From positions 19,966,441-20,030,440 of the forward strand of contig JAJEKV010000016.1 of assembly GCA_021234155.1 (NCBI GenBank): a DNA stretch of 64,000 nucleotides. Direction: 5' to 3'. Position numbers and translations under genes: made by a program. This DNA is from Isoetes taiwanensis. Lineage: Eukaryota; Streptophyta; Lycopodiopsida; Isoetales; Isoetaceae. Position 1 is the stretch's first letter. Each line of letters starts with the position of its first letter. Under the pieces are notes generated by a model. That model had not been told where the DNA came from. It saw nothing but the letters and a program-made list of their open reading frames with translations, and did not search any database. Positions 5,262 to 63,320 of this stretch are shown piece by piece.

Positions 5262-5496
5262 TGTTGCTAAAGTAAAAACAGTAGATCACAAGAACGTAGA
5301 AGAGAGCAAGAACCAGGAAACTTTGAATTGCTTTTGGCTGATTTCTACAAGCGGATCTGCCCGCCTTATATCATGGCAGCAACGGCTAGATCAGAACAAT
5401 GATGTAGATCTACAACAACTTCTAAATATGGAACTAAGATCTAACTAACAGATGACACATGTCAGGCATCTTTTTTTGTTGGTTCGTTTGACAACA
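5262..5496 (-). repeat. 3' LTR of the copia element
   Basis: 235 bp, starting TGTTGCTAAAG and ending TTGACAACA on the plus strand. It is nearly identical to 21085-21321. The left flank CCATT is one half of the target duplication. Confidence 0.95.
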
Positions 5497-21084: not shown

Positions 21085-21321
21085 TGTTGCTAAAGTAAAA
21101 ACAGTAGATCACAAGAACGTAGAAGAGAGCAAGAACCATGAAACTTTGAATTGCTTTTGGCTGATTTCTACAAGCGGATCTGCCCCGCCTTATATCATGG
21201 CAGCAACGGCTAGATCAGAACAATGATGTAGATCTACACCAACTTCTAAATGTGGAACTAAGATCTAACTAACAGATGACAGATGTCAGGCATCTTGTTT
21301 CTGTTGGTTCGTTTGACAACA
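21085..21321 (-). repeat. 5' LTR of the copia element
   Basis: 237 bp with the same TGTTG...CAACA ends as 5262-5496, followed by the CCATT target duplication at 21322-21326. Confidence 0.95.
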
Positions 21322-22529: not shown

Positions 22530-22728
22530 AGGCAGTTCATTTGAAGAGGGACCAGCCTGAAGCTGATCCATCAAAGAAGATTAAGAAAGTTTAAGATGTT
22601 ATTGCAAGGAAGGCGTCAAATGAAGACAAAGTAGAAGGTTCTGACAATGACACGGGAAAGAAAGAAGACAGTCATGAAGAACAAGAGAAGGTGAATGACC
22701 GTATAAACCTTCTAAAAGGAAGAGTTCC

Positions 22729-24359
22729 TGTGACGGTCCAGGGGAATATACGCCATAAATACGTATATTCCGGGATCCGTCACTATACAAGTCTATCTTC
22801 ATAGCCTTGTATACCATAGATTGTGGCACTAGGGGGCATGGCCAAGTTATTCTCATAGCTTAGCCAACCATAGGTTAGACCATTATCCACGTGGCCTTAA
22901 CCTATTGGGGGCACCCGCCACACAGGACTCACCCGATTGGTGCCACGTGGCATCCTAGGTGGACCTAACTTATATAGGCTGGAACCCTAACCCTAGGCCT
23001 CTTTCCAGCCCTAGCACCCAGAGACTCACCTACTCGTTCGAAACTCCGTTTCGAACATCGCTTGTTGTGGCATAGGCAAAGCAGCCCGGCGAGGTGGACT
23101 TCGTTCTTGGGCAGAGCAGCATCACGTGGGTCGAAGACCATGGAGGCACACGGATCTGGAGGGAGAGCATCAGGAGCAGGTATGTAGGGTAGTAGTTGTG
23201 ATAGCCCATCTGGAATTAGCATTCCAGATGTGCTAGTATCTTGTATCTAGAGTAGAGCCATCCTAGAACCCGTATTCAACATCTTGAACCCTAATCAATG
23301 AACCCTAACCATTAGTTAGATTGTATGATTAGGTTAAGATGTTCTTCTTATGATCATTCTTAGGATATGATGATTATGTGATGTTGGTTGATCATGTTTG
23401 CTCCTCTTGTATTGGGAAGGGGGGTAGAGACCTAGGGCCATATGTAGTATGCTCCTAGAGTAGATCCCTTAGTTCCTATTAGTTCTTTGTCGTGGTAGGG
23501 AGCCCACTGGGGCTATGGAGGCTATGATATGACTCAGCACCAGATAACGGGGCTAGAGGGAAAGTGGAGGGAGGATCCCTGCCGAGTGGGGGCTTCGGGG
23601 GATCCCATAGTGGGCTAGGCTTATGGTCGGTCACTTCGTGTGGGCCGAGCATGGGTCCGACACCTCCTGGGGCAATGGTGTTGCCCTGCCTCTCGAGAGC
23701 TGCAAGGGAGGGCTTGGCTCTCGTTTTGGGGTTTGATGGTACGAATGGGTGTGTGCGTCCACGATTCTCTAGCCGCCCGGCACCTCTAGACCCTGGGAAG
23801 GGGAGATGCAACCCTTCCTGCCTCATCGGACCAGGGAGATGCAACCTGGAGTAGTCCCGATGGGTGATGCCATGGGATTGCGTATCCGGAAGGCTAGAGT
23901 CCTGTCAGAGCCTGATCTAGCCCATCTGCAAAGTATGCACAGGAGGGGCGGATGGAGTGGTCAACCCTAGCCATTGTTCTATGCCAGCCCTCGCCATTGC
24001 CATGACTCGGTCTGCTCTATCTTGAGGCCTAGCCCGTCGGTCACCCTCCTTACGAAGTCTGAGCCGGGTAGGAGCTCTCTTTTTATGGTTTGTGATTATC
24101 ATCTTTGCATTGGTTTATAATGCGATGCACTACCCTCCGAGGTAGTATTTGTATATGTTTTATGCTAGTTACGACGTGTTATCGCTTTGTTATAGGAGCC
24201 CATAGGGAAGGGGCGCCAAGACACCTTCAGTGTTCCCTCCCCGCACTAAGAGTCACCTCGAGTGCGGGTAGGCGAAGGGCCCATCGGTTTGCCGAGCGGA
24301 TGGGGGATTTCCTGCCAAGTGTACGGCCGGGCGCCGTATGTTTAGCAGGGAGCGTCACA
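22729..24359 (+). repeat. 5' LTR, 1631 bp
   Basis: Begins TGTGACGGTCCAGG and ends GGGAGCGTCACA, so the ends are TGTGACG...CGTCACA inverted repeats. It is immediately followed by the primer-binding site. The same sequence, inverted, forms 61710-63320, and a truncated copy forms 27999-28932. Confidence 0.93.
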
Positions 24360-24360
24360 A

Positions 24361-24372
24361 TGGTATCAGAGC
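24361..24372 (+). promoter_or_regulatory. Primer-binding site, initiator tRNA-Met 3' end
   Basis: TGGTATCAGAGC starts one base after the LTR and is complementary to the 3' end of initiator tRNA-Met, the commonest primer of plant LTR elements. Confidence 0.92.
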
Positions 24373-24935: not shown

Positions 24936-25521
24936 ATGGCCGTAACCAAACAGACCTACAGAAGCTGTGACAATTTCACACTCGGGACATGGCTTAACCT
25001 AGCAAATGGACGCCATGTGAAGGAGGACTTAGCTCTTCAGCTTTGAAGGAGGATCGCCTCTGTATCGCACAAATACCAAGGCAGCCAAGAATACCTTCGC
25101 TGGACAAGGTATAAATGACTGCATCAGCCTTCTACTGTGAACGCCCAACATTCCAGGCGGGAGGGGAGGCCACAGTTAACCTCCCACTCACCGGCCACAG
25201 CCCGAGAAGCCGAAGAAGACCCACCATGGGCCTAACTCGGTACACTCCCGTGTCTTCCGGGAGATTAGACACTTTCAACAGTGCACTAATCTCCTGATTA
25301 GGAAGGCACCTTTTGAGCGACTCATGCGGGAGGTGATGCAGCAGTTCGTCACCGACTACAGGGTGACGTCGCTCACAACTCGGGTGTTGCAAGTAGCCGC
25401 TGAGGCCGAGCTCACCCAGTTGTTTGAGGAAGGGAACCTCTGCGCGATCCACGCGAAGAGGGTGATCTTGATGCCCAAGGATGTATACTTGGCGCGTCGC
25501 ATCCGCAAGGAATACCCTTGA
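24936..25521 (+). pseudogene. CENH3-like histone H3 copy inside the LTR retrotransposon
   Basis: The frame opens MAVTKQTYRS, close to the H3 tail MARTKQTARKS. After a degenerate, frame-disrupted tail and linker it reads RRRP...TRYTP, then after a frameshift near 25245 [19 protein letters not shown], and from 25324 an open stretch through the histone fold to [17 protein letters not shown] and [10 protein letters not shown] with a stop at 25519. EIRHFQ and TNLLI are typical of plant CENH3 rather than canonical H3 (EIRRYQ, TELLI), and the loop-1 region ([11 protein letters not shown]) also resembles CENH3. No introns interrupt the fold region, which fits a cDNA-derived copy. Because of stops in the tail it is annotated as a pseudogene. 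A shorter functional protein is not excluded. Confidence 0.72.
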
Positions 25522-25695
25522 GGATGCATTTTTGTCCAAAGTAATGTAATTATTAAGTCTCCCATAAATATAAAATTTTGTTGTAAAGTGACTTCAGTTT
25601 TTGTATAAAAATGTGTTTGGGTTGCTCAAATTTTAGTTTAGTTGTAGCCATCATGACTGTAAGCATCCAAATAGAATAATTTAGTAAGAGTACTA

Positions 25696-26115
25696 TAGGC
25701 AAATTAGCCAAATTTCGGCCAAAATAGCCGAAATCGGAAGGGTGTGCGAAAATAGCCTTTCCGCCCTTGACGGAAGGCCCAAATTCGCATAGCCATCCGA
25801 TTTCACCATATCCAGGCCAAATTTTGCCCAATTAGCCCAGGAAAAGTTCCAAATTAGGTTAGAAATTCCCAAATAAGTATGTTAGGACCTTTAAATTCTC
25901 TAAAACTCTTGATAGAAGTCCCAAAGATCCGAAATCGGAAGGCTATGCGAAATTGGCCTCTGCACCCTTGACTTCTCTAAAACTCTTGATAGAAGTCCCA
26001 AAGATCCGAAATCGGAAGGCTATGCGAAATTGGCCTCTGCTGACCCTTGACCGGAAGGCCCATTTTCGCACTGACCACCCGGTTTCATCATCGCATCTGT
26101 CTCGAAAATTTGGCA
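25696..26115 (+). repeat. Tandem and diverged repeats downstream of the CENH3-like copy
   Basis: A 77-bp unit containing 'ccgaaatcggaaggctatgcgaaattggcc' is duplicated head to tail (starting at 25896 and 25973). Diverged relatives of the same motif lie at about 25720-25790 and 26040-26090. It may be a short satellite-like array. Confidence 0.8.
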
Positions 26116-26221
26116 AAATTGCAATGAAGAGTTCTGAGTGCATATCCTAGCCTTTTCCATGCATTCTAGTATCATGCAGACTCTATTCTAGCTTTTCAAT
26201 CTATTTGAACCTCATCTTAAA

Positions 26222-26305
26222 AGAATTCCCACAGTAGCGGGAATCAAACCTCCCACCCACAAGGTTGAACCCCCAAACCCCAGGTGCCAACCCCGGAGGG
26301 GGCAT
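26222..26305 (-). repeat. Possible tRNA-related SINE head
   Basis: On the minus strand there is a B-box-like GGTTTGATTCCCG preceded about 50 bases upstream by an A-box-like TGGCACCTGGGG. The spacing fits a tRNA-derived pol III promoter. No clear tail or target duplication was found. Confidence 0.3.
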
Positions 26306-26309
26306 CGTT

Positions 26310-27998
26310 TGTGTTTAAATTAGGATTCTTAATTAAATTTAAGCTTTAATAATGTTAAATAATATTAATGGCCAAGCCTTAGATTTAGAACCAAGAACCT
26401 TAAGCTAGATAGAGACAGCACCTGCACTCATCATAGCTTACTTGTCGTCTTATCTTGCTAAGTGTCTTCTTTCTACATGTAGGTAGTATAATTAAACCTT
26501 TTTCATAGAAACCCAGCTAGTTGCCAAGGCCTTAGAAATTGTTGTCACACGTTGGTAGGGTACACCAACACACGTTATAGGTGCACTATCATCAAGTGTC
26601 TTCAGCCATGCCTTGTATCATAGATAATTATCTAGGAATTCATTCTATTTAAGTAATTTAGTCTTAGCACACCAAGTACACTCAGTGAATAAATCTCCTT
26701 CTACCACCCCCACGATAGTAAATAAGTACCTTTCTCAGTGCCTAGTAGAGTGCCATATGCCAAGTGGGTCATTTGAGGTAGAGTGGATAAAGGTATAAAA
26801 ATTAGGGTTTGTAGAGTAAGTAAACGTAAATAATTGTTCTTGCGGTAGTATTAATTGCCTTGTGCTTAGGGCAGTAAAATAGGTCAGGAGAACCTTCGTC
26901 ACAGATCCTCGAGCCTCGACATTGGAGAGACTCGACAACATCAACGAATTGAAAGAAGAGGGCAAACTATGGAGGAAACTTCAACAAATCAAAGGCCAAG
27001 ATGGTGTACAGGGAAGCCCGAACACGAAAAATAAAGGAGAGGCTATAGGAAGAACGACCCCACATCGATGACTAATGCCACAGCTACACCACCAACAAGT
27101 ATACTTCATCGACTTATGATATCAAGAGCCCTAAAAGATGAGACTGGATACACCTCCGAGGAAGGGCAACTATCGCAGATATACAGGACATAGTAGTATC
27201 AGATCTAGATTCCAAGCAGACATGCTTTGACTAAGGAGGTATTGCAAGCCAGCAAGGGTAGGTTCCTCAGGAGTAGGCATATGGCGAGACGGCAACAAAT
27301 TTCTTCCTCATCAGCCCCAATACTTCAGAGCGCCTACATCAACCTCGGCAACACCATCGCAAGCTCATGATGATCTTCGATCTTCCACCTCAGAGATTGG
27401 AGGTCAAACACCATCAAGAAGAGGCATCATGGGGGACCAAATACCAGCATTATTAATTGATCAGTCAAGATTAGTCCCTGCAGATGGATGCACATAAACT
27501 CATCTCAGCAAGAGAAGTTGCACAGTTAGAAGCGGTAAAGCACCCAACATTGTCATCAGCCTTATAACAACAACATGCAACCAGCAAGACGAAGAATAGA
27601 ATCGACAAGGTCAAACACAACAATAGCAATTCAGGAGTTGGAAGAATCATCCTCGAATCTCGTAACCTCCAAGGCAGATGAGCGACATGAAAGAACATTA
27701 TCTTCAAGCTCTTGGGATGCGACACCGAGCGTTATGTTATCTACATCAGCAAGTCCACTAAGAGGGATAATGTTAATGAAGGTAGTCAGCATCAACATTA
27801 AGGACGAGCAGAGTCAAAATATGTTCAATAAAAAAAGCGGGGCACTTGAAGGACCATAAAGAACTCAAGGATACCGATTCTTTTCAACAAATTATGGATC
27901 ATCGCCTTGCCACTCCAACGACTAATGTCTACACCAGCTTTGAGCAAGCTAGGGGACCCTATCGAGATAGTTGAGTTTCTTAGAATTATGGGTGATAA
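26310..27998. other. Internal region of the LTR retrotransposon, no recognisable gene
   Basis: No gag or pol motif is seen in any frame. Short open frames near 27471-27859 are low complexity and overlap on both strands. This is expected for a non-autonomous element. Confidence 0.5.
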
Positions 27999-28932
27999 CC
28001 TAGGGCCATATGTAGTATGCTCCTAGAGTAGATCCCTTAGTTCCTATTAGTTGGGCGGCTTTGTGCATAGGAGCCCACCAGGCTATGGAGGCTATGATAT
28101 GACTCAGCACCAGATAACGGGGCTAGAGGGAAAGTGGAGGGAGGATCCCTGCCGAGTGGGGGCTTCAGGGGATCCCATAGTGGGCTAGGCTTATGGTCGG
28201 TCACTTCGTGTGGGCGAGCATGGGTCCGGACACCTCCCCGGCAATGGTGTTGTTCGCCTCTCGAGAGCTGCAAGGGAGGGCTTGGCTCTCGCTTTGGGGG
28301 TTTGGTCTGGTACGAATCGTGTGTCGTCCACGATTCTCTAGCCGCCCGGCACCTCTAGACCCAGGAAGGGGAGATGCAACCCTTCCCCGCCTCATCGGAC
28401 CGGGGAGATGCAACACGGAGTAGTCCCGATGGGTGATGCCATGGGATTGCGTATCCGGAAGGCTAGAGTCCTGTCAGAGCCTGATCTAGCCCATCTGCAA
28501 AGTATGCACAGGAGGGGCGGATGGAGTGGTCAACCCTAGCCATTGTTCTATGCCAGCCTCGCCATTGCCATGACTCGGTGCGCTCTATCTTGAGGCCTAG
28601 TCCGTCCGGTCACCCTCCTTACGAAGTCCGAGGCGGGGAGGAGCTCTCTGTTTTATGGTTTGTGATTATCATCTTTGCATTGGTTTATGTGCGATGCACT
28701 ACCCTCGAGGTAGTATTTGTATATGTTTTATGCTAGTTCTCGACGTGTTATCGCCTCATTTGTTATAGGAGCCCATAGGGGAAGGGCGCTGCCAAGACAC
28801 CTCACCGTGTTCCCTCCCCGCACTAAGAGTCACCCTCGTGAGTGCGGGTAGACGAAGGAACCCATGCGGTTGCCGAGCCGGATGGGGGGATTTCCGCCAA
28901 GTGCGGCGGGGGCCGTATGTTTAGCGAGGAGC
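27999..28932 (+). repeat. Truncated 3' LTR
   Basis: Matches the 5' LTR from 23431 (CCTAGGGCCATATG) nearly to its end. It lacks the first 702 bases and the terminal CGTCACA-side bases, stopping at GAGGAGC. There are several small indels relative to the 5' LTR. The deletion explains why no target duplication is visible. Confidence 0.88.
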
Positions 28933-29339
28933 CAAGGTTCAGATTTAAAATTAAAGGTTGTGAAGGTTTCTGGGCCAGACATCGGGGAAGATGACATACC
29001 TAAGATTATTGACAAGCTCATAGAAGGAAATATTAAGGAGGAGGATCAGTTGAAGGGTGAAGAAATTCTTCAAAATCAATTGGAAGAGCTTGAAGCAAGT
29101 ATTGCAGACATCGAGAAATCCCATGAAAGGGAAGTGCCTATAAGAGTTGTCTTAGGTGGTGCATCGCCGACAAGCCGAGAAGACATCTCATCAAATCAAG
29201 CAGTAAAGACACCAGCTAAACTAGAAAAGATTGGTAAAAAACAGTTTTTATTTCACTTAGAAAGTGCAAAGGATATTGCACACAACTGAGGAGTCAGAGG
29301 AAGTAGCAAAAATCTCTGCAATTTCAGCAGATCTTATGT

Positions 29340-50595: not shown

Positions 50596-50892
50596 CTGGG
50601 GCGCTTACCCTGAGCATCTAGAACATTTTTTTTGCAAGATTTATATTGTATACCTTTATTATGAAACATTTTAGAACATTCTATTGTGGCTCTTTGCAAA
50701 ATCTTAAAAAAATTCTAAGATTTCATCAAGATCTTTTTAGATTCCCTTAGATATTATGAAGATTCCCCTAGATTCAACTAGATTTTAAGAGATTCCTTTA
50801 GACTTGTAAATATCTTCCTAGATTCTCTTATAATTTATGAGATTTCCTTAGATTCTCTTTAATTCTCGTAGATTCCCTTACATTTTACAAAT

Positions 50893-50959
50893 TTCTAAAA
50901 CATTCTAGAACTTTCTGGAACATTCTGAAACTTTCAAAACATCCCAGAACTTTCTGGAA
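50893..50959 (+). repeat. Heat-shock-element-like TTC/GAA repeat, first block
   Basis: TTC and GAA triplets alternate at 5-bp steps (50893 TTC, 50903 TTC, 50908 GAA, 50913 TTC, 50918 GAA, 50923 TTC, then a small slip, 50947 GAA, 50952 TTC, 50957 GAA), the layout of a heat-shock element. Confidence 0.6.
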
Positions 50960-51059
50960 GTATTTCCCTATTTCCTTACATTCCCAAAGATTACCTTACA
51001 TTTGGAAGGATTCTCTTAGATTCCCCCTAGATTCTCTTATATTCCAAAACATTTTAGAA

Positions 51060-51135
51060 TTCTAGAACTTTCTAGAACATTCTAGAAGATTTTAGAACTT
51101 TCTAGAGCCTCAGAACTTTCTAGAACTTTCTTGAA
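51060..51135 (+). repeat. Long TTC/GAA heat-shock-element-like array
   Basis: Sixteen consecutive 5-bp steps carry alternating TTC and GAA (51060 TTC, 51065 GAA, 51070 TTC and so on to 51133 GAA), with only three imperfect steps. This is the pentamer arrangement bound by heat-shock factor trimers. It sits just before a tRNA-like segment in copy 1 of the duplicated unit. The matching part of copy 2 (about 52245-52330) is much degraded. Confidence 0.65.
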
Positions 51136-51215
51136 TTATCTAGAATGTTATATTGTATTTTATCTTAATTAAGAATTACCTTTAAGTATATTTGAAACAT
51201 AAATTATTCATAGAA

Positions 51216-51300
51216 TTAATGCTTGGTCTAGTGGTTAGAATGGGGGGCTGGGGGGTTAATGACCAGGGTTCGAATCCCCCCAATAACATAAAAAATTTTA
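51216..51300 (+). repeat. tRNA-related (SINE-like) segment, copy 1
   Basis: A-box-like TGGTCTAGTGGTTAGAATGG and B-box GGGTTCGAATCCCC at pol III spacing. The T arm pairs for only about 3-4 bases and no acceptor stem is seen, so it is not a tRNA gene. The same segment occurs at 52397-52480. Confidence 0.65.
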
Positions 51301-51339
51301 AAAGCCTTTCCTTAAAATTTGTTGAAAATACCAAGGCCC

Positions 51340-51595
51340 GAGCATGCAATGTGAGCCGCAGGATCTTGGACCAAGGATTATGATCAATCTGGACCGTAGG
51401 ATCATGTAGGATATATCTAAAGCAACGTGAGCCGTAGGATCTCGGACCAACGGTCAGGATCAGATCAACCTGGACCGTAGGATCGCTTACATATAATCGG
51501 TCACAAACTCCCAAGCCACCTGGGCCATAGGATACGTCCCAAAGCCACGTGAGCCGTAGGATCTCGGATCAACGGCCGGATTCAGGAGGACAAAC
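51340..51595 (+). repeat. GAGCCGTAGGATCTCGGA-type short repeats
   Basis: Degenerate units alternating 'gtgagccgtaggatctcggaccaacgg' and 'tggaccgtaggatc' repeat about seven times. Similar units are at 52510-52800 in copy 2. Confidence 0.8.
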
Positions 51596-52396
51596 ATAAG
51601 AACATATATATGTTATGATATCCGAAGAAAAGAGAACTCTTGCGGTATAAATCTATACGGAGAAACGGTATAAATTTATACCGAATTGCATATATATATA
51701 AAATGTTTATATATATATATATATGTATATACAAGAAAATTAATACGTCCTACGACGCATTGTTCCAGTTTTAGCATGTTCTTACGGTGTAAGGCCCTAT
51801 GGTGCTCTAGATAACCAACGATTCTACTGAGATTCTCTTAGATTCTCCTAGATTCTCTTAGAATTTTCTGTTTTGATTGTGGTGCTTACCCATGAGCATT
51901 TAAAACCTTCTAAAATAATCTATTTTGGATCTGTGCAATATTTTTAAAACATTTTCTATTTTTAGACTAAGGCGCTTGCCCTGAGCATCTAGAATTTTTT
52001 TTTTTTCAAGATTTATATTGTACACCTTTATTATAAAACATTTTAGAACATTTTATTGTCGCTTTTTGTAAAATATTAAAAAAACTCTAAGATTTCATCA
52101 AGATTTTCTTAGATTCCCTTAGATATTATGAAGACTCCCTTAAAATCAATTAGATTTTAAGAGATTCCATTAGACTTGTATATTTTCCTAGATTCTCTTA
52201 CAATTTATGAGATTTCCTTATATTCCCTTTAATTCTCTTGGATTCCCTTACATTCTAGAAATTTATAGAACATTTTAGAACTTTTTGGAACATTTTGAAA
52301 CTTTCAAAACATCCTAGTCCTAGAATATTATAGTCTATTTTATCTTAATTACAACATTACCCTTAAGTATATTTGAAACATAAATTTTTTATAGAA

Positions 52397-61413: not shown

Positions 61414-61709
61414 CTACAAAGCAAATGAAGATCACTTAATTATGTATACACACTCATAATTGTACCAATAAGAAAGACAAGTAAGAATAGAGTACTCAAG
61501 TGCAATGAACAAAAACTTTGATACATATATTCATAACATTTGAATTTGTACATCACCAAAGTCTGCACTCAACAATGGGCCGAGAGGCCAATAACATGAT
61601 GGCGTTTCTCCATTCCTTGTCTCAGATATTGACTAAATTTAGGCAGCAGAGCACCCAAGTTGCTGCCATAGTTTGCCAAAGAAAATCTGTTCCACTCGCC
61701 GATATGCCA

Positions 61710-63320
61710 TGTGACGCTTCCTCGCTAAATATACGGGCCTACCGGCCACTAATTCTAAGCAGAAATCCCCACCCCGGCCCATCAACCGCATGGGCCCTCC
61801 GTTTAACCCGCACTCGAGAGAATCCTAGTGCGGGCAGGGGACACGAAGGTGTCGCGGCGCCCTTCCCTATGGGCTCCTATCACAAAGTGGAAGCATAAAC
61901 AACGCAGGACTAGCAATAACAATACAACATACTACCTCAAGGGTAGTCCATCACATATCCACAACCGCAAAGAAGATAATCCTATGCCATAAAACATAAG
62001 AGCTCCTACCCATGGCTCCGACTCATAAGGAGGATGACTGACTGGCTAGGCCTCAAGATAGAGCAGACCGAGTCATAACAATGGTGGGGCTGGCATAAGA
62101 CAATGGCTAGGGTTGACCACTCCATCCGCCCCTCCCGGTGCATACTTTGGATGGGCTAGATCAGCTCGGCATGACTCTAACCTTCCGGATATGCAATCCC
62201 ATGGTATCACCCATCGGGACTACCTGTGTTGCATCTCCCCTGGTCCGATGAGGTAGGAAGGGTTGCATCTCCCCTTCCTGGTCTAGAGGCTCCACGGGCG
62301 GCTAGAGAATCGCGGGCGACACACCATCTGCACCGACCTGAACCCCCAAAATAAGAGCCAAGCCGACACTTGCAACTCTTGAGAGGAAGGGCAACACCAT
62401 TGCCCTGTGAGGTGTCGGACCCATGCCCGCCCACACCTAAGTGACCGACCATAAGCCTAGCCCACTATGGGATCCCCCCCGAGCCCCCTTTCAGCAGGGA
62501 TCCTCCCTCCATCTTGCCTCTAGCCCCGTTGTGTAGTGCTGAGTCACATCATAGCCTCCATAGCCCGGTGGGTTCCTATGCACAGGTCGCAACTAATAGG
62601 AACTAAGGGATCTACACTAGGAGCATACTACATATGGCTCTAGGTCTCTACCCCCCTTCCCAATACAAGAGGAGCAACATGATCAACCAACATCACATAG
62701 CATCATAACATGATAATCATCATAAGAACATCTTAACCTAATCATACATATCTAACTTACGCTAGGTTTCCTTGATTAGGTTCAAGATGTTGAATACTTG
62801 TTCTAGGATGGCTCTACTCTAGATACGACATACTAACCCATCCGAGTGCTAACTTCCAGATGGACTACTAAGAGCACTACTCCACATACCTGGTCCGAAG
62901 CACTCCCTCCCAACCCGGGCGCCTCCATGATCTTCAAGGTGTTCGAGGTAGGTCCCACTCCTGGCCGATGCGCCACGCTAACGGGGGGGCACGCTATGTG
63001 CAAGGCTAAGAGACGGTTCTCAAAACGGAGTTTCGAAAACACCTTAAGAAGGTTCCTGCACTGATTTGGAGCGTAAAAGAGGCCTAGGGTTAGGGTTTAG
63101 GCCTTTATAGGTTAGGGTTCACATGTTATGCCACGTGGCTCCAATAGGGTAAGTCCGTGTGGCGGGTGCCATAACCTAAGGTTGGCTAAGTTATATGAAT
63201 AACTTAGTCATGCCCCCTAGCGCCACAATCTATGGTATACAAGGCTATGAAGATAGACTTGTATAGTGACGGGTCCAGGAATATACGTATTCATAGCGTA
63301 TATTCCCCTGGAACGTCACA
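61710..63320 (-). repeat. 3' LTR of a second long-LTR element (minus strand)
   Basis: Reverse-complement copy of the LTR at 22729-24359, complete with TGTGACG...CGTCACA ends and 1611 bp long. On the minus strand it follows a purine-rich tract, as a 3' LTR should, so the rest of the element lies to the right beyond the window. Confidence 0.9.

Follow-up and report, generated by a model that had tools for sequence, protein, structure and literature searches.

A histone H3 fold carried by a long terminal repeat (LTR) retrotransposon of the lycophyte Isoetes taiwanensis proved to be an old, standing component of a family of chromodomain-bearing Ty3/gypsy elements, which occupies well over a thousand sites in the genome. 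The fold was studied from a stretch of 64,000 nucleotides, referred to here as the window (assembly GCA_021234155.1, contig JAJEKV010000016.1, positions 19,966,441 to 20,030,440 of the forward strand), where it lies in a broken, non-autonomous copy of this large family. The anatomy of the elements and the selection measured on the fold together revealed that the H3 fold almost certainly belongs to the element as a regular component under strong selection. The original prediction, made from the letters of the window, had proposed that a transcript of the centromeric histone CENH3 was captured by this element; capture by the window copy was not borne out, the histone being long established in the family.

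The identity of the fold itself was clear. The open frame at 25180-25521 of the window matched the Pfam family Histone (PF00125) with an E value of 8e-27 and the H3 chains of the Protein Data Bank (PDB) with E values down to 1e-29, and the match is thus far beyond chance. The fold showed 57% identity to host H3. When predicted from its sequence alone, the structure of the window fold had a mean predicted local distance difference test score (pLDDT) of 54, and it was not used.

Occurrence of the H3 fold in element copies

Searches of the I. taiwanensis genome covered 1,658,258,908 bases in 1,110 contigs. Exact degenerate patterns returned 2,164 sites for the peptide NLCAIHAK and 1,334 sites for the tail MARTKQT-x-RK, host genes included in both counts, while the reversed patterns returned none. 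The protein search with the window fold yielded 8,888 candidates, and an internal stop was present in six of the 150 best-scored, a sample biased by its ranking by score. With plant H3.1 as query, 15 full-length host H3 genes (96-98% identity) were recovered, followed by 135 matches at 71-86%. Reading of the first 60 NLCAIHAK places listed assigned 57 to element-type sequence, and two to host H3 (L103 and L108), and left one (L064) unassigned. An H3-fold match was also located no more than 1.3 kb downstream of the tail pattern at all 12 sites hand-picked from 100 listed.

A further set was chosen blind to H3, and consisted of 20 loci spaced down the ranking of a search with ORF2, the second open reading frame (ORF) of the element (best 150 of 6,485 candidates). 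The H3 fold was found at the expected place upstream of ORF2 in 18 of these 20 loci, several of which were badly decayed. A genome search had been proposed with the original prediction to see whether other copies of the element hold the histone piece and whether it is under selection, and in the ORF2-chosen loci it was both present and constrained.

The ratio of nonsynonymous to synonymous substitution rates (dN/dS) of the fold, pooled over nine of the 20 ORF2-chosen loci, was 0.055 (codon-bootstrap interval 0.032-0.088), and it was 0.046 after the three of these nine that hold a stop were dropped. The other 11 loci comprised two without a fold, seven broken within the fold and two, L134 and L135, with an altered end; addition of these two end variants, giving 11 loci in all, resulted in a ratio of 0.069 (0.042-0.106). 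Ratios of 0.055-0.069 in loci chosen through ORF2 indicate that selection has maintained the histone in the element and that it is not a passenger. Low values were also obtained for pattern-chosen copies, taken from the first 60 of the 100 loci listed (of 2,164 in total) and restricted to open single-frame folds (five of group A, six of group B and four of group E, as described below). The fold dN/dS was 0.028 in group B (n = 6) and 0.049 in group E (n = 4), and in group A (n = 5) the ratio of nonsynonymous to synonymous proportions of differences (pN/pS) was 0.168, a rough ratio with synonymous sites near saturation and 381 of 1,000 bootstraps undefined.

Architecture of the longer copies

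The order of the element, pieced together from the longer copies L026, L027 and L041, is LTR, primer-binding site (PBS), ORF1, ORF2, gag, protease, reverse transcriptase (RT), RNase H, integrase and chromodomain. Pfam analysis of the pieces from these three copies detected Retrotrans_gag, RVP_2, RVT_1, RT_RNaseH, H2C2, rve and SH3_Tf2-1, as well as Chromo (E 5.8e-8) after the integrase, and the gag of longer copies carries a zinc knuckle. The succession of gag, protease, RT, RNase H and integrase, followed by a chromodomain, is the gene order of a Ty3/gypsy chromovirus, and by its predicted gene content the family is autonomous. In the one element whose ends were checked (G000:C1099:866213-879305), 13.1 kb of sequence is enclosed by two LTRs of ~1.63 kb that are 93% identical with gaps, a PBS is present, and a 5-bp target-site duplication (TSD), GCTTG, stands on each side. 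Identity as a hAT transposon was considered and rejected on the grounds of these LTRs and the 5-bp TSD, and no hAT domain occurred among the Pfam matches of the pieces scanned.

ORF1 is open over ~360 codons in several copies and runs from a MARTKQT(A/Y)RK tail through a charged linker to the H3 fold. ORF2 encodes a protein of ~500 amino acids (for example L027:3477-4994, L058:96-1499 and L060:235-990); no Pfam match was obtained for the ORF2 pieces scanned, and the best match of PDB searches with ORF2 and with the N-terminal domain of group B had an E value of only 0.28. A viral-contig scan, which detects close relatives only, returned no match, and a viral source is therefore without support.

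Divergent lineages of the family

The copies were sorted into lettered lineages. In group A, to which the window copy belongs, ORF1 consists of the H3 tail, a charged linker of ~200 residues and the H3 fold; the tail MARTKQT(A/Y)RK was present in 14 of 15 other group-A loci examined, and no H3 tail was found in the remaining one (L015). Group B has a different N-terminal domain of ~300 residues fused to a fold that is 84-88% identical to host H3, and the folds of groups C (one copy), D (one copy) and E (four open copies) showed 80-88% identity to it. Group G, encountered among the tail-pattern loci L141-L152, combines an exact MARTKQTARK tail with long, differing charged linkers and divergent folds that carry LIPRAPF or LIPRAAF. 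One locus of the same series, L147, resembles group A. The linker that follows ARTKQT-x-RK is very unlike between the lineages read. The proteins of groups A, B, C and G differ from canonical H3, with its ARTKQTARKS tail and 135 residues, as groups A and G add a long linker and the group B and C copies read are tailless.

Groups A, B and D are nevertheless linked through ORF2. Comparison of groups A and B showed homologous ORF2 proteins (E 4e-12) with an identity of only 20%, and groups B and D shared 39%; identity between lineages ranged from 20 to 40%. Group D also carries RT and RNase H. Across these deep splits (A, B and D), the predicted H3 fold is kept much better than ORF2.

Origin of the element histone

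The original prediction had labeled the window fold as CENH3-type on the basis of EIRHFQ and TNLLI. These two motifs are indeed CENH3-like, but several other features were not in agreement with the label. Loop 1 has the length of canonical H3 in every element fold aligned, whereas an insertion is present in all four CENH3 references, and the Trp84 of CENH3 is absent from every element fold aligned; group A has Val at position 84 (in all 16 recent and in five of six older copies), as do the five G folds, and groups B to E have Phe there. The tail is the canonical ARTKQT-x-RK, and all PDB matches shown (60 of 176) were H3 entries, none of them named CENH3 or CENP-A. On the other side, EIRHFQ, Thr85 and APF (replaced by AAF in two G copies) are states that the folds of A and G have in common with at least one plant CENH3, and the same holds for LIP in group G.

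The fold tree with CENH3 references, which had been suggested as a check, placed the element histone differently according to the sequences included. In the best tree with group G, A and G formed a clade (support 98/96) that joined plant CENH3 at a weak 69/85, while omission of group G gave a tree that set the CENH3s apart from group A, also weakly (77/84). The approximately unbiased test gave p values (p-AU) of 0.106 for the grouping of A with CENH3 (0.341 with plant CENH3) and 0.598 for the grouping of A and G with all CENH3s; these values reject none of the CENH3 groupings, and they depend on few references, the four CENH3 sequences being long-branched. The query of the genome with an Arabidopsis CENH3 fold (best 150 of 6,892 candidates) had host H3 at the top and recovered no CENH3 gene, which introns could hide.

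Judged from the sequences, canonical H3 appears a more likely source of the A and G histone than CENH3, because of the canonical tail, the length of loop 1 and the homologous ORF2 that links A to B and B to D. Descent of the A and G histone from CENH3, with an element that targets or disturbs centromeres, would account for EIRHFQ, TNLLI, APF and Thr85 in group A, for LIPRAPF in group G and for the best tree and the test values; in view of the opposing features it is considered unlikely. When the ORF1 region of the window was compared with the coding sequences of seven host H3 genes, the longest exact word in common was 11 nt, and small RNAs from the element directed against canonical host H3 are thus predicted to be unlikely, since the shared exact words are too short.

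Proposed role of ORF1 and alternative explanations

The silencing of transposable elements works in large part by way of marks placed on the H3 of the host. The explanation that best accounts for the data overall is a Ty3/gypsy lineage with a modified-H3 ORF1 that acts as an element-made H3 variant, and we give it about even chances. According to this explanation, ORF1 would be translated, enter the nucleus, pair with host H4 and serve as a chromatin-bound H3 variant, the most likely place being the new DNA copy of the element or its insertion site. There it could help the copy to become chromatin on the terms of the element, be it through access, escape from silencing, or integration in concert with the integrase chromodomain. 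A nucleosomal role of ORF1 is tentatively preferred over its rivals, at somewhat less than even chances. A more specific version, in which ORF1 would replace host H3 on complementary DNA (cDNA) or fresh insertions and create an element-specific chromatin, with a tail that recruits or misleads K4 and K9 readers and with the A and G histones possibly derived from CENH3, is doubtful; if true, the host silencing machinery would read the element-specific nucleosomes differently. An H3 of the element's own, kept under selection and retaining in several lineages the first nine residues that are recognized at K4 and K9, would be a direct counter-move to silencing.

The residues conserved in the fold are consistent with a nucleosomal role. 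C110, H113, D123 and L126, which we take to be the H3-H3 pairing residues, and R49, R63, R69, R72, R83, K115 and K122, presumably DNA contacts, were the commonest state throughout groups A to E, in copies selected through their protein score or through the NLCAIHAK pattern; K64 was the commonest state in groups A to D and is replaced by Arg in group E. Position 87 is unlike host H3 in all groups A to E and position 90 only in group A, and we assume that these two sites set the choice of chaperone.

Several observations weigh against the proposed role. The manner in which the copies were picked makes the residue conservation partly a matter of construction, in particular that of C110, H113 and K115 among copies selected by pattern; the set picked through ORF2 escapes this bias but still requires a readable fold. 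Group A has lost R42, T45 and K56, and mostly K79, which could weaken nucleosome formation. The ARTKQT tail is absent from the group B and C copies read, and a role of the tail is thus not universal. A low ratio is not restricted to H3, as the dN/dS of ORF2 was 0.128 (0.076-0.202) in five distinct group-A loci, and the fold dN/dS in the same five loci, 0.066 (0.009-0.160), has an interval that overlaps that of ORF2. Purifying selection, moreover, shows use and not the kind of use. As regards present activity, pol is split into several frames in all four long copies read. Finally, a single origin of all element folds had a support of 72/87, not starred, and with group G added it was not rejected (p-AU 0.492).

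Alternatively, ORF1 could be a decoy or mimic whose tail or fold titrates H3 readers, writers and chaperones (for example K4 readers, K9 methyltransferases, ASF1 and CAF-1) and weakens silencing without building nucleosomes. Such a role would fit the exact ARTKQT-x-RK at 1,334 sites despite the very different linker that follows, and also the altered position 87 in groups A to E and position 90 in A. However, the fold of group B is constrained (dN/dS 0.028) although the copies read lack the tail, as do those of group C, and the kept H3-H3 and DNA contact residues are not needed by a simple titrator; the decoy is therefore held to be rather improbable.

ORF1 could also be a tether that binds nucleic acid and histone, brings the gag and integrase complex to chromatin and sets the target together with the integrase chromodomain. 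The element does contain a chromodomain (E 6e-8), with ORF1 placed before gag in the same element, and MAGGY, a fungal element, has a chromodomain that is reported to recognize H3K9me (PMC3350952). Near-complete retention of the H3-H3 interface is, however, not obviously needed for a tether, and no direct link between ORF1 and integrase was observed, which makes this account a poor prospect. As to a host H3 transcript caught by chance and carried along while decaying without function, LTR elements of plants commonly capture genes (PMC7264820) and many copies, the window ORF1 included, have frameshifts or stops, but the dN/dS of 0.055-0.069 in H3-blind copies largely refutes it, and together with the fold upstream at 18 of 20 ORF2 loci and its retention in several divergent lineages leaves it very improbable.

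Comparison with known systems

Element-borne H3 is already known, and what is new in Isoetes is the different class of element and the evidence of lasting use. In Dothideomycete fungi, "transduplication" of histone H3 by hAT DNA transposons has been described for Pyrenophora tritici-repentis (PMC3538342), and hAT-borne H3 for Pseudocercospora fijiensis and its relatives (PMC6710886). As in Isoetes, a mobile element multiplies a host-derived H3-like gene, with tens of copies in P. tritici-repentis and hundreds in P. fijiensis. In contrast, the fungal elements move by cut-and-paste and have terminal inverted repeats and an 8-bp TSD (P. fijiensis), whereas the Isoetes element is an LTR retrotransposon with a 5-bp TSD in a plant. 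The fungal H3 copies are reported to be either near-identical and recent or mutated by repeat-induced point mutation (RIP), while the Isoetes element has more than 1,000 sites, divergent lineages, long fused domains and a measured purifying selection on the histone. The fungal hAT transposons indicate that elements can acquire H3, and the Isoetes case that selection can maintain H3 in lineages that have diverged.

Orchid Ty3/gypsy elements with an acquired N6-methyladenosine (m6A) RNA demethylase ORF (PMC9289625) offer a parallel in which a plant Ty3/gypsy lineage has fixed an additional, host-derived working gene; the orchid gene encodes an AlkB enzyme that was tested in vitro, whereas the Isoetes gene would encode a structural protein of chromatin. 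Elements that have additional ORFs besides gag-pol, in some cases ahead of it, have been reviewed (PMC7264820), and such ORFs are most often located between pol and the 3' LTR, unlike ORF1 and ORF2 of Isoetes, which precede gag. The gag-pol order and the chromodomain after the integrase are shared with plant chromoviruses (PMC3350952, PMC2864245), for which the passages concerned mention no H3 ORF; the lycophyte element SM-Tcn1 described there has 5.7 kb and two ORFs, in contrast to the 13.1 kb and two extra ORFs before gag in Isoetes.

Word searches revealed that "histone" is absent from the main texts of the review on extra ORFs (PMC7264820), of a review on gene capture (PMC13317346), and of the genome papers of Isoetes taiwanensis (PMC8566536) and Isoetes sinensis (PMC10541799). 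No report of an H3-coding LTR retrotransposon was found among the papers listed by searches of the open-licence literature of PubMed Central (PMC), a scope that excludes most subscription papers and bioRxiv and does not prove absence from print. Beyond its possible role against silencing, the element H3 provides a natural experiment from which the H3 residues required by an element could be learned, and such a large set of H3-like genes in a lycophyte genome can mislead chromatin assays and counts of histone genes.

The window copy and its surroundings

The window copy has the structure of a non-autonomous LTR retrotransposon, with both LTRs and a PBS present and gag-pol absent (Table 1), and the placement of an H3-type histone frame within such an element was thereby upheld. 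All parts of the arrangement first described, with an intron-less histone-fold frame and an H3-like tail start between the PBS and a truncated 3' LTR, were confirmed. The PBS, presumably of the initiator-methionine tRNA type, recurs as the word TGGTATCAGAGC in L026-L029 and upstream of the group-B copy L054. The LTR pair of the window differed at 27 of 873 aligned bases, gaps aside.

The window copy is unable to make a whole ORF1 protein, since its linker is shortened, with ~500 bp absent relative to L027 in the alignment, and its tail and fold are in separate reading frames. Nothing in the 10-kb cuts of four longer copies matched the segment at 26087-27997, and the first ~1 kb of this segment was 97% identical to L018 and to L015/L024, as far as the fetched loci reach. 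These data suggest that the window copy derives from a non-autonomous subfamily or branch that still bears the H3 fold.

Table 1. Features of the element copy in the window (window positions).
Feature	Position	Strand	Description	Basis
5' LTR	22729..24359	+	~1.63 kb, ends TGTGACGG...GCGTCACA	Alignments with 3' LTR and L026-L029; ends also from the C1099 element
Primer-binding site (PBS)	24361..24372	+	TGGTATCAGAGC	Read from sequence
H3-type N-terminal tail, damaged	24936..24965	+	MAVTKQTYRS, start of ORF1; out of frame with fold	ATG at 24936
Charged ORF1 linker	24966..25236	+	Shortened remnant	Breaks in alignment to longer copies
H3 histone fold	25237..25521	+	94 residues and stop, C-terminal end of ORF1	Pfam and PDB matches; frame open from 25180
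ORF1-ORF2 interval sequence	25522..26086	+	Common to longer copies; holds short repeated motif	Alignment
Segment replacing ORF2/gag/pol of longer copies	26087..27997	+		Alignment to longer copies and fetched loci
3' LTR	27998..28932	+	First ~700 bp gone; final few bases damaged, target duplication uncertain	LTR alignments

The flanks of the element (22600-22728 and 28940-29300) appeared by eye to be another repeated or once-coding sequence, the host of the insertion. Another LTR fragment, from this family or a near one, is located in the opposite orientation at 61704-62746 on the minus strand, with 83% identity to the L027 LTR. Elsewhere in the window, direct repeats at 5262-5476 and 21085-21300, which are 97-99% identical and 15.8 kb apart, could be LTR pieces of another element, and direct repeats ~1.37 kb apart with 90% identity were observed at 50626-52317.
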